In this document: positions 23 to 10,512 of the stretch, piece by piece
Position numbering within the stretch: the first letter of the stretch is position 1
Layout: the number at the start of each line of letters is the position of its first letter
NCBI GenBank assembly: GCA_031260095.1
Contig: JAIRKN010000148.1
Location: 1-10,512, forward strand
Direction of reading: 5' to 3'
Length of the DNA: 10,512 nt
From: Tannerella sp.
GTDB lineage: Bacteria > Bacteroidota > Bacteroidia > Bacteroidales > Tannerellaceae
Made by a program: the position numbers and the translations under genes
The notes under the pieces: generated by a model
What the model saw: the letters and a program-made list of their open reading frames with translations, nothing else
What the model was told of the DNA's origin: nothing
Database searches by the model: none

Positions 23-730
23 ATGACCGAATTGCCGCAATACAAACAGATATATGAAAACTTAAGGGCGCAGATCGCCGCAGGAAAATATATTCCCGGC
101 GACCGGCTTCCATCAGAACATGAGTTATGCGTGAAATATAATGTGGCGCGCCTTACCGTGCGGAAAGCGTTGGAGCAATTGGTTGCGGACGATTTTATCA
201 TTCGTCATCAGGGGAAAGGCAGTATCGTGAAAGGTACTCCGAAAGGAATCGGTATCCTGTCGCTGATGAGTACAACTTCTGCGCTCGACAATACGAATCT
301 TACAACACATATCACTTTGAAACCGGAATTGCGCGAATGGCATGAGGCGTTTACTTTTCCGGTTGAGCCGCAGGAAGAAGCAGCCGGATGTATCTATTTT
401 GAACGATTACGATTGCTCGACGGAGAGCCGGTTTTTTATGACATTACGATGCTTCCGAATATAAACCTGCCGCGCTTTTTGGATTACGATATGGAAAATA
501 AATCGCTGTTTGATACCTTGCGCACCAGGTATCAGATTGTTGTGACCGGAGGCGTACAACAACTTTTTGCCATACGGGCCGATAAGCGTCTTCAGGAATC
601 TTTTTATGTCCGCTCCGGACATCCCGTACTGCAACTTAACCGGAAGATCAATACCAATCGCACAGGATTCCACATATACAGCCGGATATTTTGCGTGACA
701 CAACGTTACGGACTGATCGGAAGTTTCTGA
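23..730 (+). CDS. GntR-family (HutC/UTRA type) transcriptional regulator
   Basis: This is a ligand-responsive DNA-binding regulator of 235 aa, a normal length for the HutC subfamily. Residues about 5-71 form the GntR winged helix-turn-helix: the YKQIYENLRAQI helix, the GDRLPSEHEL segment, the recognition-helix region VARLTVRKALEQL and the wing ending HQGKGSIV. Residues about 95-230 fit a UTRA effector-binding domain, with the typical patterns CIYFERLRLLDGEPVFYD and HPVLQLNRKI. The ATG at 23 is preferred because family members usually begin a few residues before YKQIYE. However, no in-frame stop precedes it in the window, so a longer start cannot be excluded. It sits upstream of and codirectional with a catabolic operon, and the intervening gap holds matching inverted repeats. 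It is therefore probably the local repressor, released by a pathway substrate or intermediate (inference). The ligand is unknown, though UTRA ligands are often sugar phosphates or small acids. Confidence 0.93.
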   Translation: MTELPQYKQIYENLRAQIAAGKYIPGDRLPSEHELCVKYNVARLTVRKALEQLVADDFIIRHQGKGSIVKGTPKGIGILSLMSTTSALDNTNLTTHITLKPELREWHEAFTFPVEPQEEAAGCIYFERLRLLDGEPVFYDITMLPNINLPRFLDYDMENKSLFDTLRTRYQIVVTGGVQQLFAIRADKRLQESFYVRSGHPVLQLNRKINTNRTGFHIYSRIFCVTQRYGLIGSF

Positions 731-821: not shown

Positions 822-853
822 TTGTATATATACATTTTTTTATCGTAACTTTG
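822..853 (+). promoter_or_regulatory. Bacteroidota-type promoter for the catabolic operon
   Basis: TAACTTTG at 846-853 matches the Bacteroides -7 consensus TAnnTTTG exactly. TTG at 822-824 lies 21 bp upstream, within the usual spacing for the -33 element. Transcription would start near 857-862, leaving a leader of about 45 nt before the ATG at 905. It faces the E2 gene and is the only promoter of this quality I noticed in the window. Confidence 0.8.
823..834. promoter_or_regulatory. Probable GntR operator 2 (perfect palindrome over the promoter)
   Basis: TGTATATATACA reads identically on both strands. Extended leftwards it starts with ACTTGTATAT, the same decamer as in the upstream inverted repeat. 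It overlaps the TTG of the -33 element and part of the promoter spacer, so a bound repressor would block RNA polymerase. Runs of alternating TA are self-complementary by chance more often than mixed sequence, so the shared ACTTGT flank is the stronger evidence. Confidence 0.55.
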
Positions 854-904: not shown

Positions 905-2233
905 ATGGCAACAGTTGTAATCATGCCCAAACAGGGACAGTCGGTCGAAAGTTGTATCCTGACGGAGATAAAAAAGAAAAAAGGCGACGCCGTCGCAGTC
1001 GGCGATATATTGTTTTCTTATGAAACAGACAAGGCTTCGTTTGAAGAAGAAGCGCAGGCGGCAGGCACCGTGCTCGACGTGTTTTTTGCCGAAGGAGATG
1101 AGATCCCTGTCCTTGCGAACGTAATGGTAATCGGTCGTCCGGGAGAATCGACGGATGAGTTTCGCACCGAAGCGGCAGGAAACGCTCCCGCCGAAACGGT
1201 TGCGCCCGTAACCGCGCCGCCACAATCCGCCGAAGCGCCCCAGACTGTAAACGCCGGTATGCAAACGACCGCCACAGCCACGTCTCCAGTATCGCCGCGC
1301 GCCAAAGCGCTGGCCGGCAAAAATGCTATACAGGCAGAAACGCTTGCCGGTACAGGCCCGCATGGACGTGTGATCGAACGGGATGTGCAGGCTGTTATTG
1401 ATAACATGCCGAAAACAACGCCGCTGGCAAAAGCCGTTATCAAAGATACGGGCGCATCACTTCCAGAATCCGGAAGCGGACTGGCCGGAACTGCGAAAAG
1501 CGCCGATCTCGGAGTGAAAAATCCGGTGTATGCCTCCGACAGCGAAATAAAACCATTGACCAATATGCGGAAGATTATCGCCAAATCTATGCACGCATCC
1601 CTTCAAAACTCAGCACAGTTGACCCACCACCTCGGTGCAGATGCACGGAATATTATGGCGCTACGCAAAACGGTCAAAAAAGCAATGCAGAATGGCTATC
1701 CGACCGATATTACACTAAATGATTTCGTTTGTTTGGCCGTCATCAAAGCGCTGAAAAAATTTCCGCAGGTGAACGCGCACTTTCTCGGAGACAGCGTGCG
1801 CCTGTTCTCGAAAGTACACCTCGGACTGGCAGTAGATACGGAACGCGGACTGATGGTGCCTGTCGTAAGAAATGCCGACGACTTGTCCGTACAGGACTTA
1901 TCCAATCAGCTCAAAGAAGTGGCCAACGCATGTAAAAAGGGAGGCATCGCGCCGGATCTTCTTTCGCCGGAAGCCGCGTCGTTCACGGTATCAAACCTCG
2001 GAAATTACGGCGTAGAAATGTTTACGCCCGTCATCAACCTGCCGCAGGTCGCTATTCTGGGAGTTAACACGATCGTTCCACGCCCGAAAGACCTGGGAGG
2101 AGGCGTTTACGGATTTGTACCTTACATGGGCTTAAGCCTTACATACGACCACCGTGCACTCGACGGAGGCGAAGCTACCCGTTTCGTAAAACAGGTGGCC
2201 ATTGAAATCGAAAATCTTGAATTTAGCTTATAA
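905..2233 (+). CDS. 2-oxoacid dehydrogenase complex E2 (dihydrolipoamide acyltransferase)
   Basis: This is the core subunit of a 2-oxoacid dehydrogenase-type complex. It carries the acyl group on a swinging lipoyl arm and transfers it to CoA in the cytoplasm. The protein is 442 aa, normal for an E2 with one lipoyl domain. Residues 1-79 are the lipoyl domain, with the lipoylation motif ETDKAS and Lys43 as the modified residue. An Ala/Pro/Thr-rich linker covers about 85-128. Residues about 129-166 are the peripheral subunit-binding domain (SPRAKALAGKN, then GTGPHGRVIERDV). A second Ala/Gly/Ser linker follows, then the catalytic domain from about 214, with FTVSNLGNYGVEMFTPVINL (359-378) and the active-site DHRALDGG (His416, Asp420). 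The ATG at 905 follows a purine run and starts exactly at the lipoyl fold. It is the first gene after the promoter, 13 bp before the E3 gene. The acyl specificity cannot be decided from the sequence. Confidence 0.95.
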   Translation: MATVVIMPKQGQSVESCILTEIKKKKGDAVAVGDILFSYETDKASFEEEAQAAGTVLDVFFAEGDEIPVLANVMVIGRPGESTDEFRTEAAGNAPAETVAPVTAPPQSAEAPQTVNAGMQTTATATSPVSPRAKALAGKNAIQAETLAGTGPHGRVIERDVQAVIDNMPKTTPLAKAVIKDTGASLPESGSGLAGTAKSADLGVKNPVYASDSEIKPLTNMRKIIAKSMHASLQNSAQLTHHLGADARNIMALRKTVKKAMQNGYPTDITLNDFVCLAVIKALKKFPQVNAHFLGDSVRLFSKVHLGLAVDTERGLMVPVVRNADDLSVQDLSNQLKEVANACKKGGIAPDLLSPEAASFTVSNLGNYGVEMFTPVINLPQVAILGVNTIVPRPKDLGGGVYGFVPYMGLSLTYDHRALDGGEATRFVKQVAIEIENLEFSL

Positions 2234-2246
2234 AACAATCAAACGT

Positions 2247-3611
2247 ATGATAGATTTAGCAATTATCGGCGGCGGGCCGGGAGGATATGTAGCAGCGGAA
2301 CGCGCGGGAGCAAAAGGATTAAGTGTCGTACTCTTTGAAAAAAGAGAACTTGGAGGTGTGTGCCTGAACGAAGGTTGTATTCCTACCAAAACACTGCTAT
2401 ATAGCGCCAAAGTTTTTGATTATGCAAAGCATGGCGATAAATACGGGATCAATGTGGCGGACGCTTCATTCGATTTCGGCAAAATAATGGTGCGTAAAGA
2501 CAAAGTAGTAAAGAAACTGATCGCAGGCGTAGGCGCTAAAATGAAAGCGCATAAAGTGACGGTTGTCAAAGGGGAAGCGATGATAAAGGGACGTTCATCC
2601 GCAGGGATCGAAATATCCTGTGACGGAGAAGACTTTTGCGCGAGAAACCTGCTGCTTTGTACCGGCTCGGAAGCGTTTGTGCCTCCCATTCCGGGAGTGC
2701 GGGAAGCCGGGGATATCGTTGTTACGAACCGGGAGATCCTATCCCTTAAAGAACAACCGAAGTCATTGGTCATCATAGGTGGCGGCGTTATTGGAATGGA
2801 ATTTGCCAGCTTCTTCAACAGCCTCGGCACGGAAGTGACGGTAGTGGAGATGCTGCCCGAAATACTGGGCGGACTGGATAGTGAGATCAGCAAAATGCTT
2901 CGCGAGATGTATAGCAAAAAAGGCATTACATTTAATTTATCCTGCAAGGTTACGGAAATAAAAGGAAACGAAGTGGTCTATGTAAATGCGGAAGGCGTTC
3001 AGGCGTCGGCCAAAGGCGAAAAGATCCTGATGAGCGTCGGTCGCCGCGCCGTCACGCAAGGGTTTGGACTGGAGAATCTTGGTGTGGAAACGGAGCGGAA
3101 TGCGATCAGGGTAGACAGTAAAATGAGGACAAACGTTCCGAATGTTTTTGCCGCAGGAGATGTGACGGGCTTCTCTATGCTTGCTCATACGGCCAGCCGC
3201 GAAGGTGAAGTGGTCGTCAACAATCTCACGGGCCGTCCCGACGTTATGCGCTACAATGCGATTCCCGGCGTTGTCTATACGAACCCGGAAGTGGCCGGAA
3301 CAGGTCTCACGGAAGAACAGGCAAAGAAAGAAGGTATTGCCTATAAGATAGTCAGACTGCCCATGAGCTATGCCGGACGCTTTATTGCCGAGAACGAAGG
3401 AGGTAGCGGAATATGTAAAGTGCTGGCCGGAGAAAAATACGGAGAAGTGCTCGGAGTACATCTGCTGGGTAATCCCTGTAGCGAAATGATCTATGGAGCA
3501 TGTCTGGCCATCGAACAGGAAATGACGCTCAAAGAAATGGAAGAAGTGGTATTCCCCCACCCAACCGTATCCGAAATATTCAAAGAAGCAATCTTTGCAA
3601 TGGACATTTAA
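2247..3611 (+). CDS. lpdA: Dihydrolipoamide dehydrogenase (E3)
   Basis: This FAD enzyme reoxidises dihydrolipoamide on E2 and passes electrons to NAD+. The 454-aa protein is slightly shorter than many E3 proteins (about 460-475). Visible features are the N-terminal FAD motif GGGPGG (8-13), the redox-active pair Cys39/Cys44 in GGVCLNEGCIPTK, the NAD-binding GGGVIG (178-183), the second FAD motif NVFAAGDV (299-306), and the C-terminal dimer domain with His438 and Glu443 in HPTVSE. All key residues are present. The ATG at 2247 places the Rossmann strand directly at the N-terminus. An upstream in-frame ATG at 2202 would add 15 residues with no family counterpart and overlap E2, so it was rejected. 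It lies between E2 and E1, suggesting a dedicated E3 rather than a shared housekeeping copy (inference). Confidence 0.95.
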   Translation: MIDLAIIGGGPGGYVAAERAGAKGLSVVLFEKRELGGVCLNEGCIPTKTLLYSAKVFDYAKHGDKYGINVADASFDFGKIMVRKDKVVKKLIAGVGAKMKAHKVTVVKGEAMIKGRSSAGIEISCDGEDFCARNLLLCTGSEAFVPPIPGVREAGDIVVTNREILSLKEQPKSLVIIGGGVIGMEFASFFNSLGTEVTVVEMLPEILGGLDSEISKMLREMYSKKGITFNLSCKVTEIKGNEVVYVNAEGVQASAKGEKILMSVGRRAVTQGFGLENLGVETERNAIRVDSKMRTNVPNVFAAGDVTGFSMLAHTASREGEVVVNNLTGRPDVMRYNAIPGVVYTNPEVAGTGLTEEQAKKEGIAYKIVRLPMSYAGRFIAENEGGSGICKVLAGEKYGEVLGVHLLGNPCSEMIYGACLAIEQEMTLKEMEEVVFPHPTVSEIFKEAIFAMDI

Positions 3612-3647
3612 TTAATATACACGATTCATCATTAATTACTAAATAGT

Positions 3648-6125
3648 ATGCCAAAAGTAGAATTTATCGACCCTGCAAAGGTCAGAAAACCGGGTGAAGT
3701 AAAATTCAGTAACATCCCTGTGAACCAATACAAAAAAACAGTGAGCGAAGAACTGAACAGCAAAAACTTCACAAATGAAGATTTAACACGTATTTACTTC
3801 GATATGTCGGTGATACGTGAGTTTGAAACGATGCTCCAGCTTGTAAAAACAACCGGCGCTTATCAGGGGATTGAATATAATAATCCCGGCCCGGCTCATT
3901 TGTCTGCGGGACAGGAAGCTGCGGCAGTAGGTATGGCTTATATGCTGGATACGGACGATTTTATTTTCGGTTCTCACCGCAGTCATGGAGAAATTATCGC
4001 CAAAGGATTGCGCTCCATACAAACTATGCCGGAAAAAGAATTGAAAAGGATTATGGAAAGTTTCTGGGACGGAGCCACGTTGAATGTAGCTAAAAAAGCG
4101 TATAAGGGGAAAGAGATCAAAAAGTTGGCCATTAGATTCCTTTTATATGGAGCATTAGCCGAAATATTCGCACGTACAACCGGTTTCAATAAGGGCCTTG
4201 GCGGCAGTATGCACACGTTCTTCACTCCGTTCGGCATTTATCCGAACAACGCAATCGTAGGAGGTAGTGCGACTATTGCTGTCGGAGCGGCTTTGTATAA
4301 GAAAGTGAATCGTAAGAAAGGGATTGTGGTAGCCAATATCGGTGACGGCTCCATGGCGCGCGGCCCCGTCTGGGAAGCGCTTTCTTTTGCCGCTATGGAT
4401 CAGTTTAAACAGTTGTGGGAGAAAGATATGAAAGGCGGACTGCCCGTTATTATCAATATCATGAACAATCAATACGGCATGGGCGGACAAACAGCCGGAG
4501 AAACTATGGGATACGATATCGCAGCACGTATCGGCGCAGGCGTAAATCCTGAACAAATGCACGCCGAACGTGTCGACGGGTATAATCCGTTAGCCGTAAT
4601 CGACGCATATCGCCGCAAAAAAGCTATCTTAGAGAAAAAAGAAGGTCCTGTCCTGCTCGATATTCTTACCTATCGTTACAGTGGTCACTCCCCGTCGGAT
4701 GCTTCCTCCTATCGTACAAAAGAAGAAATCGAAGCCTGGGAAAAAGCAGACTGTATCAAGAGCTACGGAAAGGAACTCGTAAAAGCCAAAGCAGCGACAC
4801 AAAAGGAACTGGATGCAATAGAGAAAGAAATCAAAGAGATTATGTTTGAGATATTCAAACTGGCCATCGACCCGGAACTTTCTCCGCTAATGGATTTGAA
4901 GAAGCAGCCGGATCTGCTGGAGGAAATGATGTTTTCCAATCAGTCGGTAGATTCTTTGTCAGAGGCCAAACCGGAGGTCAATCATCCGTTAAAAGAAAAT
5001 CTGCGCGTCAAACAAATAGCCGGAAAAGAACGCTTTGCTTATGACGAAAACGGTAAACCGTTCTCTAAAATGAAACAGTACCAGTTGCGTGACGGTCTTT
5101 TCGAAGCCATTGCTGACCGGTTTTACAAAGACGCTTCACTCGTTGCATACGGAGAAGAAAACCGCGACTGGGGAGGCGCTTTTGCCGTTTATCGCGGGCT
5201 AACCGAAGCCCTGCCGTATCATCGCCTGTTCAACGCGCCTATTGCAGAGGCGGCTATTGTCGGGACAGCTATTGGCTATGCAATGTGCGGCGGGCGTGTC
5301 ATTCCCGAAATTATGTATTGCGACTTCCTGGGATGTTGTGGCGACGAGGTTTTCAATCAGCTACCCAAATGGCAGGCAATGAGCGGAAATCTCATCAAGA
5401 TGCCGGTTGTCGTACGTGTATCGGTAGGGTCCAAATACGGCGCTCAGCACTCCCAGGACTGGACTTCGCTGGCGGCTCACATTCCGGGACTGAAAGTCTG
5501 TTTCCCCGCAACGCCTTACGATGCAAAAGGATTGATGAACCGTGCATTGCAGGGAACGGATCCGGTTATATTCTTCGAAAGTCAGCGCATTTATGATATC
5601 GGCGAACAATTCCATAAAGGCGGAGTGCCTGAAGGATATTATGAGATCCCGTTCGGTGAGCCGGATATCAAACGCGAAGGGAAAGACGTTACCTTCCTTA
5701 CCATTGGCGCAACCCTCTATACGGCTCTGAAAGCGGCCGATAGACTTGAAAAAGAATACGGCATGAGTGTGGAAGTGATAGACGCACGTTCACTGGTTCC
5801 CTTCAACTATGAAAAGGTGCTGGCGTCGGTTAAAAAGACGGGACGTATCGTGATTGCAAGTGACGCTACCGCACGCGGCTCGTTCCTGAACGACCTTGCA
5901 CGCAACATAACGGAACTTTCATTCGACGATCTGGACGCTCCCCCCGTGGTCGTAGGTTCACGCAACTGGATCACGCCCGCATACGAACTTGAATATGCCT
6001 TCTTCCCGCAGGAAGAAAGTTTCCTGGATGCCATACATGAAAAAATCGTTCCGTTAAAAGGATATATTCCTACCTATAATTTTACGGACGGCGAACAAAT
6101 ACGCCGACAAAAACTCGGAGTGTAA
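3648..6125 (+). CDS. Fused E1 alpha-beta thiamine-diphosphate dehydrogenase
   Basis: This ThDP enzyme performs the first step of the complex: it cleaves the carbonyl substrate and reductively acylates the E2 lipoate. At 825 aa it joins both E1 subunits in one chain. The alpha part (about 45-410) shows FGSHRSHGE (His110, His113), GGSMH (185-189), the ThDP motif opening at GDG (232-234) and closing at NN (273-274), and the loop YRYSGHSPSD (342-351). The beta part (about 475-800) shows YGEENRDWGG, the cofactor glutamate region NAPIAEAAIVG (Glu534), and SKYGAQHSQDW with likely catalytic His601. About 65 polar residues join the halves. An N-terminal extension of about 45 residues precedes the alpha fold. 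The GDG-to-NN spacing is about 38 residues instead of the usual 24-27, and the segment 120-180 is about 35 residues longer than in typical alpha chains. The substrate is uncertain: pyruvate, a branched or sugar-derived 2-oxoacid, or an acetoin-like compound. The stop overlaps the next ATG by one base. Confidence 0.9.
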   Translation: MPKVEFIDPAKVRKPGEVKFSNIPVNQYKKTVSEELNSKNFTNEDLTRIYFDMSVIREFETMLQLVKTTGAYQGIEYNNPGPAHLSAGQEAAAVGMAYMLDTDDFIFGSHRSHGEIIAKGLRSIQTMPEKELKRIMESFWDGATLNVAKKAYKGKEIKKLAIRFLLYGALAEIFARTTGFNKGLGGSMHTFFTPFGIYPNNAIVGGSATIAVGAALYKKVNRKKGIVVANIGDGSMARGPVWEALSFAAMDQFKQLWEKDMKGGLPVIINIMNNQYGMGGQTAGETMGYDIAARIGAGVNPEQMHAERVDGYNPLAVIDAYRRKKAILEKKEGPVLLDILTYRYSGHSPSDASSYRTKEEIEAWEKADCIKSYGKELVKAKAATQKELDAIEKEIKEIMFEIFKLAIDPELSPLMDLKKQPDLLEEMMFSNQSVDSLSEAKPEVNHPLKENLRVKQIAGKERFAYDENGKPFSKMKQYQLRDGLFEAIADRFYKDASLVAYGEENRDWGGAFAVYRGLTEALPYHRLFNAPIAEAAIVGTAIGYAMCGGRVIPEIMYCDFLGCCGDEVFNQLPKWQAMSGNLIKMPVVVRVSVGSKYGAQHSQDWTSLAAHIPGLKVCFPATPYDAKGLMNRALQGTDPVIFFESQRIYDIGEQFHKGGVPEGYYEIPFGEPDIKREGKDVTFLTIGATLYTALKAADRLEKEYGMSVEVIDARSLVPFNYEKVLASVKKTGRIVIASDATARGSFLNDLARNITELSFDDLDAPPVVVGSRNWITPAYELEYAFFPQEESFLDAIHEKIVPLKGYIPTYNFTDGEQIRRQKLGV

Positions 6126-7306
6126 TGACTATGGGAACATACAGCAGAGTGCCAAACGTCAATGCACACTTGCATACGCCATTTTCTTTCAGCGCCTTTG
6201 AAAACCTGGCCGACGCGCTGGATAGAGCTTCGGGTGAGAATGTCAGTGTCGTGGGAATCAATGATTTTTATTCCACTGACGGATATGAAGAATGGGATAA
6301 AGAGTCGCGTAAGCGACATCTTTATCCGTTGTTCAATATCGAATTTATAAGCCTCCAGCAGGAAGATCAGGAGAACGGCATACGTGTGAATGACCCGAAT
6401 AATCCGGGACGTACATACATCAGCGGAAAAGGATTAAGTTGTCCGCCTGCACTGAAAGAGCCTTATGCATCACAGTTAGCCGGAGTACGTGCAGAATCGA
6501 ATACGCAGGTAAAAGAAATGTGCGACAAGATAAACCTTCTCTTAAAAGCTTATAACGCCGGTTTTCATGTTGATTTTGAAAATATCGAAAGCGAGATGAG
6601 CAAAGGGCTTGTGCGCGAACGTCACTTAGCCAAAGCGCTGCGCATGTATACGTATATCCATTTTAAGAACGAGCCGAAAGACGTGAAGAAATTTATGGAA
6701 AAGATCTTTAACGGTAAAAAATTAAAATCGGATATATTTGATTACGCCGGAGTGGAAAATGAGATACGCGGCAATCTGCTGAAAGCCGGAGGAGCCGCAT
6801 TTGTCCCGGAAGATCCGAAAGCATTCCTTCCGCTCGACGATGTGCGCCGTATCATCCTGAATGCAGGCGGAATCCCAACCTATCCATTCCTTGGCGACGA
6901 TGCAAACGGAGGATTCACCGACTTTGAACAGGATATAGAAAAAGCAGCCGAGACCCTGAAACAACGAGGTATTTTTGCGGCGGAATTTATTACGACCAGA
7001 AATACTACGGATGTGTTGGAGAAATATGCAGGTTATCTTCATGATAACGGGTTTGTTGTCACATTCGGAACAGAGCATAATACGCCTGCAATGGAACCCA
7101 TATTGCTCCGTACCCGCGAAAAATCCCTTCTGACGGAACGATTGAAACAAATTAATTATGATGGGGCTTGTGTCATAGCCGCTCATCAGGAGCTTATCCG
7201 TGAAGGGAAAGCCGGATATGTCGACGACAATGGGATAGCAGATATGGACAACCGGAACAAATATATCGAAAAGGGTAATGAATGGATACAAGCTGTCATT
7301 CACTGA
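6125..7306 (+). CDS. PHP-superfamily-like metallohydrolase, substrate unknown
   Basis: This 393-aa protein has the order of motifs of a PHP (polymerase and histidinol phosphatase) metal-dependent hydrolase. These are NAHLHTPFSF with His15/His17, GINDF (44-48) in place of the usual TDH segment, NIEF with Glu73, and RERHLAKAL with His167, which resembles the RPHIARAL motif of nucleotide-processing PHP enzymes. Next come GGIPTYPFLGDD (248-259), where Tyr253 replaces the usual histidine of the AHP motif, and GTEHNTP with Glu317/His318 near the C-terminal end of the barrel. Several metal-site positions are thus kept and others altered. No signal peptide or membrane segment is seen. Its ATG overlaps the E1 stop (TAATG), suggesting translational coupling; ATG at 6131 is an alternative start. 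From context it may hydrolyse a phosphate ester, lactone or ring bond of a pathway intermediate, but this is inference. Confidence 0.75.
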   Translation: MTMGTYSRVPNVNAHLHTPFSFSAFENLADALDRASGENVSVVGINDFYSTDGYEEWDKESRKRHLYPLFNIEFISLQQEDQENGIRVNDPNNPGRTYISGKGLSCPPALKEPYASQLAGVRAESNTQVKEMCDKINLLLKAYNAGFHVDFENIESEMSKGLVRERHLAKALRMYTYIHFKNEPKDVKKFMEKIFNGKKLKSDIFDYAGVENEIRGNLLKAGGAAFVPEDPKAFLPLDDVRRIILNAGGIPTYPFLGDDANGGFTDFEQDIEKAAETLKQRGIFAAEFITTRNTTDVLEKYAGYLHDNGFVVTFGTEHNTPAMEPILLRTREKSLLTERLKQINYDGACVIAAHQELIREGKAGYVDDNGIADMDNRNKYIEKGNEWIQAVIH

Positions 7307-7334
7307 TCCGCCAAACAAATAATTTTTTAAAACG

Positions 7335-9302
7335 ATGATAAACGATAATATTAAGCAACTGATTGAGATCTCCCGCAAATACGGAAGCGACGACCGCTAT
7401 GTGATTGCCGGAGGAGGTAACACATCTTACAAGGATGATGAAAAATTATGGGTAAAAGCAAGCGGTCATGCACTCGCAACCATTACGGAAGACGGTTTTG
7501 CCATTCTCGACCGGAAAAAACTGAATGTCATATCCGAAAAGAAATACAGCTCTGATGCAGCTAAACGCGAAGAAGAGGTGAAAAATGACCTGGCAGCCGC
7601 ATGTATCACAAAAGACCGTCGCCCTTCCGTCGAAACATCCATGCACAATGCGATCGGCTATGCTTTTATCGTTCATCTTCATCCCACCATGGTAAACGGG
7701 TTGATGTGCAGCAAAAATGCCGAATCGGAAACAAAACAACTGTTTGGAAACGAAGCGGTATATATTCCTTACACCGACCCGGGATATGTATTGTTTAAAG
7801 AGGTTGAAACACGGATCAATACGCATCGGAAAAAGACCGGGAAGCATCCGTCGATCATTTTACTGCAAAATCATGGTATTTTCGTAGGAGCGGATACGAC
7901 CAAAGAGATAGAAACCATATACAAACAGGTAATCGGCAAAATAGAGAAAAAAGCGGCAGCCGGACGAACGGCTAAGGATGAAAAGATCTGCGACTGCGTA
8001 CAGGAAATCATACCGGCCATACGCATGATGGTAAGCAAGTATGACGGACTGAAAACATTGAAAGTACGAAACAACAGCCGGATCAGAAAATTCGCCTCGT
8101 CGGAAAAGGAATTTGCAAAAATCGCGGCTCCGTTTACACCGGACGTTATCGTATACTGCAAGTCCAAATATATCCGGCTGGCAAACACAAGCAAAGACGA
8201 CCTGCTGAAAAAAGCGCAGAAAGAAATAGATAACTATGTGAAGAAAAACGGGTACACGCCGAAAGTGTTGGTCATTGAAGACATTGGGCTGGTAGCCATT
8301 GGCGACAACGCCGCCGGATGCGACATTATTCTGGACGTGTACGAGGATCTGATGAAAGTAACTGAAATCGCTCAATCTTTTGGGGGAGAACATCCCATGA
8401 CAAAAAAACAAATAGACTTCATCGACCATTGGGAAGTTGAAAACTACCGTCGTAAAGTAAGCGCCGGAAATGCTTCGGGACGTGTGGAAAATAAAACAAT
8501 CATAGTCACAGGAGCCGCCCAGGGATTCGGCGAAGGTATTGCGGAATGTTTACTGAAAGAAGGCGCTAACATTGTCGTGGCCGACCTGAACGAAACAGCA
8601 GGCCATGCGACGGCAGAGCGTTTTTTAAGCCGCTGCAAAACGAACCGGGTACTGTTTGTAAAAACAAATGTCGCCGATACTGCAAGCCTGCGAAACCTGA
8701 TACATGAAACGGTTTGTAACTTCGGAGGACTGGATGTTTTTATTAGTAACGCAGGCGTGCTGCGCGCCGGAGGACTGGAAGACATGACGCCGGAGGATTT
8801 TGAGTTTGTAACAAAAATAAATTATAACGCATACTTCTACTGCACACAAGCAGCGTCGCGCGTGATGAAGCTTCAGAACGAATACGCCCCGGAGTATTAT
8901 GGCGATATCATCCAGATCAACTCAAAATCCGGTCTGCGCGGCTCCAAAGCAAACTTCGCGTATGCAGGCGGCAAGTTTGGAGGCGTTGGGCTGACGCAGT
9001 CATTTGCCCTTGAACTGGCTCCATTCCGAATCAAAGTCAATTCGGTCTGCCCCGGTAATTTTTATGAAGGCCCGTTATGGTCCAACCCCGAAAACGGTTT
9101 GTTCAAGCAATACCTGGAAGCAGGAAAAGTACCCGGCGCTAAAACAATCGGGGACGTTCGCAAATTCTATATGAATCAGGTACCCATGCGCAAAGGAACC
9201 GGCCCGGAAGATGTTGCCAAAGCCGTACTTTATCTTATCGACCAGACATGCGAAACCGGACAGGCCATTCCCGTAACAGGAGGACAGGTCATGCTAAACT
9301 AA
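7335..9302 (+). CDS. Bifunctional class II aldolase / short-chain dehydrogenase fusion
   Basis: This two-enzyme protein of 655 aa is somewhat shorter than the YuxG/RhaEW-type fusions (about 690). The N-terminal class II aldolase module (about 1-365) has the phosphate-binding-type GGGNTSYK (26-33), likely catalytic Glu100, metal ligands His114 and His116 in VHLHPT, and His180 in QNHGIF. It should cleave a ketose phosphate or similar compound, typically releasing dihydroxyacetone phosphate. The C-terminal SDR module (about 384-655) has TGAAQGFG (392-399), SNAG (471-474), Ser530 and Tyr543/Lys547 in YAGGK. Its stretches IIQINSKSG, KFGGVGLTQSFALELA and the end PVTGGQVM closely resemble sorbitol-6-phosphate dehydrogenase SrlD as I remember it. 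This SDR may therefore act on a polyol phosphate rather than on lactaldehyde (inference). It lies 28 bp after the PHP gene and 25 bp before the SorE-like gene. Both active sites look intact. Confidence 0.9.
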   Translation: MINDNIKQLIEISRKYGSDDRYVIAGGGNTSYKDDEKLWVKASGHALATITEDGFAILDRKKLNVISEKKYSSDAAKREEEVKNDLAAACITKDRRPSVETSMHNAIGYAFIVHLHPTMVNGLMCSKNAESETKQLFGNEAVYIPYTDPGYVLFKEVETRINTHRKKTGKHPSIILLQNHGIFVGADTTKEIETIYKQVIGKIEKKAAAGRTAKDEKICDCVQEIIPAIRMMVSKYDGLKTLKVRNNSRIRKFASSEKEFAKIAAPFTPDVIVYCKSKYIRLANTSKDDLLKKAQKEIDNYVKKNGYTPKVLVIEDIGLVAIGDNAAGCDIILDVYEDLMKVTEIAQSFGGEHPMTKKQIDFIDHWEVENYRRKVSAGNASGRVENKTIIVTGAAQGFGEGIAECLLKEGANIVVADLNETAGHATAERFLSRCKTNRVLFVKTNVADTASLRNLIHETVCNFGGLDVFISNAGVLRAGGLEDMTPEDFEFVTKINYNAYFYCTQAASRVMKLQNEYAPEYYGDIIQINSKSGLRGSKANFAYAGGKFGGVGLTQSFALELAPFRIKVNSVCPGNFYEGPLWSNPENGLFKQYLEAGKVPGAKTIGDVRKFYMNQVPMRKGTGPEDVAKAVLYLIDQTCETGQAIPVTGGQVMLN

Positions 9303-9327
9303 TAATTAATCATATCATTCAATTAAC

Positions 9328-10512
9328 GTGAAAACAAAAGCAGTACGATTATACGGAAAAAACGATCTTCGGTTGGAGACGTTTGAATTGCCTGCCATCA
9401 AGGAGGATGAGATCTTGGCAAAAGTAATATGCGACAGTATTTGTATGTCGTCATACAAAGCTACACATGAAGCCGACATACATAAACGGGTGCCACGCGA
9501 TGTGGCGCAGAACCCGGTTATCATCGGCCATGAATTTGCAGGAGAACTGATAGAAGTCGGCAGTAAATGGAAAAATAAATTCAAACCCGGAGAAAAGTTT
9601 TCCATACAACCTGCACTGAATGATCCGAACGGCCCGGTTGGCCCGCTAAGCGCACCCGGTTACTCATACCGCTATATCGGCGGCGACGCTACCTGTGTAG
9701 TAATCCCAAATGAAGTGATGGAAAATGATTGTCTGCTGCACTATACGGGCAAAGGTTTCTATCCGGCCTCCCTGTCAGAGCCTCTGTCGTGCGTCATCGG
9801 AGCGATGCACGCGAATTATCATACCGAACAGGGCTCCTACATTCATCAAATGGAAATAAAGGAGGGGGGAAACATGGCCATTCTCGCCGGAGTCGGCCCC
9901 ATGGGACTGGCTGCGATCAATTATGCCATCCATCGCCCCGACAGAAAACCGAAATTCATGATTGTAACGGATATAGACCAGGCAAGGTTAGACCGGGCGG
10001 CACTGCTATACAGTCCGGAAGAAGCAGCCCAAAACGGTATCGAATTGAAATATATCAATACCGGAGATATGGAAGATCCTTTAGCGGAACTTCATGCCAT
10101 GACCGGCGGCTACGGATATGACGACGTCTTCGTATTTGCCCCGGTAGCCCCGATTATCGAACAGGCAGATGCCATTCTTGCGGTAGACGGATGTCTGAAC
10201 TTCTTCGCCGGTCCTGCCAAAACCGATTTCAAAGCGCCTTTCAACTTCTACAACGTGCACTATGCAAGAACACACATCGTCGGAACAAGCGGCGGAAACA
10301 ACGACGACATGGTAGAAGCGCTCGACATGATGAGCAAAGGTCTCGACCCGGCCGGATTAATCACCCACATCGGGGGCCTCAACGCCGTAATAGATACGAC
10401 CATGAATCTACCCCATATACCGGGCGGCAAAAAACTGATCTACACACATATCGACATGCCGCTGACTCCCATTACCGAATTTGAGGAAAAAGGACAATCG
10501 AATCCCGTATAT
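9328..10512 (+). CDS. SorE-like zinc-dependent medium-chain dehydrogenase (3' end outside window)
   Basis: This is an NAD(P)-dependent medium-chain dehydrogenase, open for 395 codons to the window edge. Homologues are a little over 400 aa, so only the last few residues should be missing. The start is GTG at 9328, followed by KTKAVRLYGKNDLRLETFEL, a typical family N-terminus; no ATG fits there. Likely zinc ligands are Cys39 (or Cys35) in CDSICMSS, His68/Glu69 in GHEFAG and Glu151 in SEPLSC. The four-cysteine structural zinc loop of alcohol dehydrogenases is absent. The Rossmann motif is GVGPMG (188-193), with Asp215 after strand two suggesting NAD preference. Long stretches such as DGCLNFFAGP, VGTSGGNNDDM and GGKKLIYT match the L-sorbose-1-phosphate reductase (SorE) family as I remember it, which interconverts sorbose-1-phosphate and glucitol-6-phosphate. 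The true substrate may be another ketose or polyol phosphate. Confidence 0.88.
   Translation, partial: MKTKAVRLYGKNDLRLETFELPAIKEDEILAKVICDSICMSSYKATHEADIHKRVPRDVAQNPVIIGHEFAGELIEVGSKWKNKFKPGEKFSIQPALNDPNGPVGPLSAPGYSYRYIGGDATCVVIPNEVMENDCLLHYTGKGFYPASLSEPLSCVIGAMHANYHTEQGSYIHQMEIKEGGNMAILAGVGPMGLAAINYAIHRPDRKPKFMIVTDIDQARLDRAALLYSPEEAAQNGIELKYINTGDMEDPLAELHAMTGGYGYDDVFVFAPVAPIIEQADAILAVDGCLNFFAGPAKTDFKAPFNFYNVHYARTHIVGTSGGNNDDMVEALDMMSKGLDPAGLITHIGGLNAVIDTTMNLPHIPGGKKLIYTHIDMPLTPITEFEEKGQSNPVY

Follow-up and report, generated by a model that had tools for sequence, protein, structure and literature searches.

A distinct E1 subfamily of lipoate-linked dehydrogenase complexes tied to sugar-alcohol-phosphate genes in Bacteroidales

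The window analyzed here, a 10,512-nucleotide stretch from Tannerella sp. (assembly GCA_031260095.1) that makes up the entire contig JAIRKN010000148.1, carries a six-gene operon in which a full E2–E3–E1 set for a 2-oxoacid dehydrogenase-type complex is followed on the same strand by genes for a PHP-fold protein, a fusion of a class II aldolase with a short-chain dehydrogenase/reductase (SDR) and a SorE-like dehydrogenase. A GntR gene lies upstream. The spacing between the six genes is at most 36 bases, confirming the tight operon described in an earlier note made from the sequence alone, and the contig end cuts the SorE-like gene. The genes are:

23..730, + strand: GntR/UTRA (HutC-type) regulator (PF00392, PF07702)
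905..2233, + strand: E2 (PF00364, PF02817, PF00198)
2247..3611, + strand: E3, dihydrolipoyl dehydrogenase (TIGR01350)
3648..6125, + strand: fused E1 alpha-beta, 825 amino acids (PF00676, PF02779, PF02780)
4014..4142, + strand: insertion of about 43 residues (about 123–165) in E1, from an alignment of 26 E1s
6125..7306, + strand: divergent PHP-fold protein, 393 amino acids (model and structure matches, PF02811)
7335..9302, + strand: aldolase-SDR fusion (PF00596, PF00106)
9328..10512, + strand: SorE/YggP-like zinc dehydrogenase, truncated by the contig end (similarity to annotated sorE and yggP)

The substrates commonly given for E1–E2–E3 complexes are pyruvate, 2-oxoglutarate, branched-chain acids, glycine and acetoin. 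The E2 of the window consists of a single lipoyl domain (ETDKA), an E3-binding domain and an acyltransferase domain (DHRALDG), and its E3 passes the TIGR01350 cut-off (500 bits against 409). The E1 retains the GDG...NN motif, the ‘PIxE’ glutamate and the AQHSQ histidine and, given the roles that we take these to have, should be an active thiamine pyrophosphate (TPP) enzyme. In a tree of 24 rows, whose long branches the program flags and whose outgroup acetoin (aco), pyruvate (PDH) and branched-chain (BCKDH) dehydrogenase E1s were drawn from annotated plasmids, the operon E1s and an E1 from plasmid pRL8 of Rhizobium johnstonii form one clade (100/100 support, stem 3.37), and the two aco E1s pair with each other, apart from it. 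The window E1 is 54% identical to the pRL8 protein and 59% to those of two further genomes discussed below (G395 and G720), 36–37% to aco and Bacteroidales split E1s (36% to the two aco E1s), 29–32% to two PDH E1s and 30% to one BCKDH E1. Two records not marked as MAGs, of the possibly cultured Parabacteroides sp. PFB2-12 and PFB2-10, include E1s 81% and 80% identical. Scores against PDH models fall below their curated cut-offs (TIGR03182, 207 bits against 394; NF006667, 233 against 321). In the 26-E1 alignment all 13 clade rows carry the ~43-residue insertion, which is missing from 12 of the 13 other E1s; the E1 of Shinella has a shorter, different insert at this site. Of the 269 positions invariant in the clade, 55 have polar or aromatic residues that no more than two of 13 outgroup E1s share. 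These include K596, Y597, D604 and W605, which adjoin the catalytic histidine; W508 is found among the outgroup E1s only in the two aco rows. Such polar clade-specific residues would favor a polar substrate over a branched-chain acid. The records listed name members of the subfamily only ‘2-oxoisovalerate dehydrogenase E1 component’, ‘dehydrogenase’, ‘thiamine pyrophosphate-dependent enzyme’ or ‘alpha-ketoacid dehydrogenase’, and profile matches within the window include no acetoin or butanediol genes. Judged by sequence, the E1 subfamily groups with none of the three standard types compared (PDH, BCKDH and acetoin dehydrogenase) and is distinct from them. On this point the earlier note is supported, and an ordinary PDH or BCKDH is disfavored by the sub-cut-off scores, the tree and the identities.

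To judge how far the genes travel together, we surveyed 237 evenly drawn Bacteroidales genomes, the window's own among them. The E1 subfamily is present in 35 (67–100% identity, with next-best matches at or below 41%) and the PHP protein in 33; both occur in 33 genomes, E1 only in 2, PHP only in 0 and neither in 202 (Fisher value 2e-38, shared descent uncorrected). In 28 of the 33 the two genes are on one contig, in 25 they are within 3 kb of each other and in 27 they are on the same strand. This co-inheritance rules out chance linkage. We then tabulated 27 operons, the window excluded, that were picked because E1 and PHP share a contig. The SDR was found in 25, E2 in 23, SorE in 22, GntR in 20, the aldolase domain in 18 and E3 in 9, and since several of these stretches end at contig ends the counts are lower bounds. 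Occasional neighbors include AKR (5 of 27), HxpB-like HAD (4), MtlD-like (3), FSA (3) and FGGY (2) genes, a D-lyxose isomerase (1) and a PfkB gene (1); none is present in many operons, but all are consistent with hexitol and ketose phosphates. The FGGY protein of one locus (L039) is rhamnulokinase-like (460 bits against 528) and has a fucosidase gene nearby, which makes L-fucose or L-rhamnose a candidate substrate, but FGGY genes are present in only 2 of the 27 operons. Small genes at another locus (L044) had been candidates for a phosphotransferase system (PTS); Pfam rules this out, identifying them as DUF4870 and parts of dihydroorotate dehydrogenase.

A shared operator links these genes further. 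A GntR ortholog lies within the fetched stretch in 20 of the 27 tabulated genomes, and the exact palindrome ACTTGTNNNNACAAGT occurs in 18 of 57 fetched loci, always before E2 and/or GntR; in one of the 18 the site precedes an FSA gene placed between GntR and E2. A search of the whole genomes of 33 carriers found 29 ACTTGTNNNNACAAGT sites in 22 genomes, compared with 13 sites of the reversed pattern in 8, and 20 of the 29 lie at the operon promoter (20 of 33 carriers). Two of these 20 (G195:C69 and G219:C260) are outside the set from which the pattern was derived. In G245, whose operon locus lacks SorE, an operator lies 105 bases before a stand-alone SorE ortholog (69% identical; L183, G245:C37, 6435–7817), and SorE thus seems to belong to the operon's regulon even when relocated. 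Among the remaining 8 sites, 2 precede different GntR genes (35–36% identical) and 5 have no evident link (1 unexamined). At two loci (L189 and L191) such a different GntR gene (35–36% identical), with the operator ACTTGTACGYACAAGT, adjoins a gene that by eye resembles deoxyribose-phosphate aldolase. In the whole window the 16-mer ACTTGTNNNNACAAGT with fewer than two mismatches is absent, and the control elements proposed there are:

739–748: putative operator half-site ATATACAAGT (from repeats)
754–763: putative operator half-site ACTTGTGTAT (from repeats)
820–831: putative operator half-site ACTTGTATATAT (from repeats)
822..853, + strand: predicted Bacteroidota-type promoter TTG-N21-TAACTTTG (pattern match; overlaps an operator half-site)

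The consensus for promoters of Bacteroidota is TTTG / TAnnTTTG. Scans for Sigma70-type promoters and for terminators did no better than shuffles (14 against 14.5 and 14 against 13.1). Together, the co-inheritance across 237 genomes and the operator support the view of the gene set as a conserved, co-regulated unit, in line with the earlier note. Its exact composition is less constant: the association is strong, but E3 is present in only 9 of 27 operons and the aldolase domain in 18, and, with no PHP match around E1 in G395 and G720, in the whole of G395 or in the plasmid collection that includes pRL8, we conclude that E3, PHP and the aldolase are not part of an invariant core.

The aldolase-SDR fusion comprises a class II aldolase domain (residues ~1–205), a linker and an SrlD-like SDR domain (383–655). 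The best PDB match of the latter is the sorbitol-6-phosphate dehydrogenase 5o3z (E 2.5e-40), and its best single-domain NCBIfam match is NF009050 (SrlD), below the cut-off (213.5 against 307). The aldolase half retains the HxH, ET and NHG motifs in the window and in 23 of 31 aligned orthologs (window excluded) and is missing in the other 8 (L084, L085, L086, L089, L090, L116, L117 and L039), where the SDR stands without it. Three of these 8 loci have an FSA-like gene, 4 a phosphoglycolate-phosphatase-like HAD and 3 neither. The loss of the aldolase with FSA nearby, along with a transaldolase gene in G720, suggests that unrelated C–C-cleaving enzymes are exchanged in the pathway. The SorE-like protein is 51–52% identical to three annotated SorE proteins over 97–98% of its length and 52% to E. 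coli YggP (overall coverage 97–100%). E. coli yggP sits between cmtA and glpX (L102), beside the cmt mannitol PTS genes, and at L080 (15446–17544) a tandem class II aldolase protein and a lipoate-protein ligase are encoded downstream of SorE. SrlD acts on glucitol 6-phosphate at a position distant from the phosphate, and SorE at the carbon adjoining it. Because the two act at opposite positions, the pair would shift a carbonyl along the chain.

The PHP protein is a divergent one. Its relatives begin at codon 3 (base 6131), and all 46 aligned PHP rows match PF02811 at E ≤ 0.01, with the window protein missing the gathering score (16.9 against 26.4). Model and structure matches agree with the fold. 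A profile of the 46 proteins run against PDB sequences gave one match, chance-like (6q2d, E 0.02), and the fold assignment therefore draws on the model and weak Pfam matches. Invariant in the 46 rows are H13 and H15 (HxH), E71, H165, E315, H316 and an NDPxNPGR loop; the D of HxHxxxxD and the H of TDH, which we take to be the canonical PHP metal motif, are missing. In view of this difference its reaction may be something other than phosphate ester hydrolysis. The earlier note's ‘PHP-like hydrolase’ is thus upheld as to fold, but the hydrolase label is itself a guess, as the protein departs from that metal motif. PHP paralogs also occur beyond the E1 operon (L041, L122, L031, L035, L036 and L046), where they adjoin HAD, AKR, SDR, transketolase-RpiB, transporter or channel genes.

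The E1 clade extends to other genomic contexts. On pRL8 its neighbors are genes for sugar ABC transporters, an RbsD/FucU protein, a lipoyl protein, an alpha/beta hydrolase and a sugar-binding regulator, with a D-psicose-3-epimerase-like gene (143 bits, cut-off 300) and a fructokinase-like PfkB gene (136 bits, cut-off 450). A search of the plasmid collection including pRL8 returned no match to the PHP protein, and the searched passages of PMC3333776 name neither the pRL8 genes nor the complex. Among 392 Bacteroidota genomes searched at E ≤ 1e-150, G395, which belongs to another class, has the only case besides the window; 245 genomes of that class yielded one more, G720. At the G395 locus are genes for a sugar symporter, an MtlD-like protein, E1, SorE, GH92 and PfkB; at that of G720 are genes for an MtlD-like protein, E2, E1, SorE, a transaldolase (318 bits, cut-off 234), GH92 and symporter pieces, with an aldehyde dehydrogenase and a 2-hydroxyacid dehydrogenase some kilobases away. 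Neither stretch has a match to the PHP protein or the SDR fusion around E1, and a PHP search of the whole G395 genome, run without a positive control, found none. Thus, on pRL8, in G395 and in G720, E1 sits with genes for ketohexoses or hexitol phosphates in three settings. L101 (Shinella pShin-08, 2479–9166) is a second, sugar-acid context of E1 complexes: there another fused E1, ~30% identical, adjoins an AcoC-type E2, a four-carbon acid sugar kinase and a class II aldolase.

Across a bacterial order, this E1 subfamily is tied to sugar-alcohol-phosphate genes by the arrangement of the genes, by their co-inheritance and by a common operator. We think it quite possible, if somewhat short of probable, that the operon serves the catabolism of hexitol or ketohexose phosphates and that E1–E2–E3 converts a ketol or 2-oxo compound derived from sugar to acyl-CoA. 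We infer the direction of flow, the E1 substrate and the PHP reaction as follows. GntR would control the operon; the SorE-type and SrlD-type dehydrogenases would interconvert ketose 1-phosphate, hexitol phosphate and ketose 6-phosphate; and the aldolase domain (elsewhere FSA or transaldolase) would cleave the ketose phosphate into triose units. E1 would cleave a sugar-derived carbonyl compound, most likely an alpha-ketol, on TPP in the manner of acetoin dehydrogenase, the acyl piece passing through lipoamide to CoA and E3 yielding NADH. In the Bacteroidales version the PHP protein would serve as an accessory, metal-dependent enzyme. The carbohydrate or polyol pathway proposed in the earlier note gains from the sugar and polyol context of the other E1-clade loci; the identity of the fragment that would leave as acyl-CoA is conjectural.

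Several observations weigh against hexitol or ketohexose phosphate catabolism. PHP has no step assigned in it, and it leaves unexplained why one operon should have an acyl-CoA-forming complex as well as an aldolase. The polar E1 pocket is read from sequence instead of coordinates; the matches of the dehydrogenases, the kinases, the epimerase and the HADs to named equivalogs fall under curated cut-offs; and the operator pattern was derived from many of the same promoters, making that evidence partly circular. The E1 of G395 lacks an adjoining E2, the best E2 matches (30–34%) lying on another contig. Linkage is also looser in the host genus (37 genomes: PHP in 23, E1 in 23, both in 18), where many contigs stop within the operon and some PHP matches have other settings, such as the transketolase-RpiB neighborhood of G033. 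In G024, of this genus, E1 is followed by a convergent gene, with PHP and the aldolase-SDR fusion on another contig, and in G017, also of this genus, a piece of E1 lies ~27 kb from PHP. These two genomes and the R. johnstonii plasmid are thus cases in which the E1–E2–E3 genes are unlinked to the rest, which the earlier note held would tell against its reading; the association is nonetheless strong overall.

A sharper proposal, which we regard as unlikely, makes the E1 clade a lipoamide-linked counterpart of phosphoketolase: a ketohexose 6-phosphate (or 1-deoxyketose phosphate), supplied as ketose 6-phosphate by SorE/SrlD or SorE/MtlD, would be cut between C2 and C3 to give aldotetrose 4-phosphate, glycoloyl-CoA (or acetyl-CoA) and NADH, and a neighboring transaldolase or FSA would take the tetrose or ketose. 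It is about as doubtful that the complex oxidizes polyol-derived pyruvate, as a PDH with an unusual sequence that yields NADH instead of reduced ferredoxin. PDH-type models do give the best E1 scores (207 and 233 bits), and the 73%-complete host genome yielded no other PF00676 gene, but those scores stay below the cut-offs of 394 and 321, the identities to PDH and BCKDH E1s of at most 32% go with a position outside both in the tree, and a pyruvate enzyme would have no need of linkage to SorE or of an operator shared with it. Rather less likely still, E1 could act on a 2-oxo acid derived from the aldolase or transaldolase product, for example hydroxypyruvate to glycoloyl-CoA. The polar clade-specific residues near the catalytic histidine and the phosphoglycolate-phosphatase-like HADs of 4 of 27 operons would suit such a substrate; however, among the scanned neighbor open reading frames of the Bacteroidales operons, many others being unscanned, there is no aldehyde dehydrogenase, dehydratase or 2-hydroxyacid dehydrogenase. 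An inositol route, in which PHP hydrolyzes a diketone that a SorE/IolM-like enzyme has formed from inosose and E1 takes the resulting keto acid, is very improbable: its basis, that IolM (scyllo-inosose 3-dehydrogenase) is the top NCBIfam match of the SorE-like protein, amounts to 60 bits over residues 4–91 with a cut-off of 450, whereas the identity to annotated SorE is 51–52% near full length and the SDR is SrlD-like.

A complex that cleaves ketoses and acylates CoA would be novel as enzymology, would correct many annotations and would offer an NAD-linked tool for producing acyl-CoA from sugars; lipoate-linked cleavage of ketose 6-phosphate, if true, would constitute a separate class of sugar-cleaving reaction. 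We found no description of this gene set in the literature covered, which leaves out preprints and many subscription papers, and we believe the operon to be undescribed.

Comparison with known systems brings out what is familiar in this operon and what is not. Acetoin dehydrogenase (acoABC) likewise combines a TPP-dependent E1 with a lipoyl E2, and W508 is common to the window E1 and the two aco E1s. AcoC is made up of a lipoyl domain plus an alpha/beta-hydrolase, and the separate lipoyl protein and alpha/beta hydrolase of the pRL8 relative resemble AcoC split in two. Unlike the aco enzymes, the window E1 is fused, carries an insertion and falls outside the aco pair in the tree, and its E2 is of the ordinary acyltransferase type (PF00198). 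Pyruvate and branched-chain 2-oxoacid dehydrogenases have the same E1–E2–E3 domain set, but differ in operon, in E1 identity (29–32%) and in the sub-cut-off scores of the window E1 against PDH models. The L-sorbose (sorE) and glucitol (srlD) phosphate routes use enzymes that are found together in the window too; these routes run with a PTS and are not known to involve a lipoate complex, a PHP protein or a fused aldolase, and the window operon differs in having all three of the latter. A paper on mannitol and sorbitol in Haloarcula (PMC11519228) reportedly mentions a sorbose-1-phosphate reductase. Finally, the bifunctional rhamnulose-1-phosphate aldolase/SDR (RhaEW type, TIGR02632) has the same architecture and aldolase motifs as the window fusion, which in contrast scores 265 bits against a cut-off of 568, has an SrlD-like SDR half and belongs to a set of orthologs in which the aldolase half is missing in 8 of 31.

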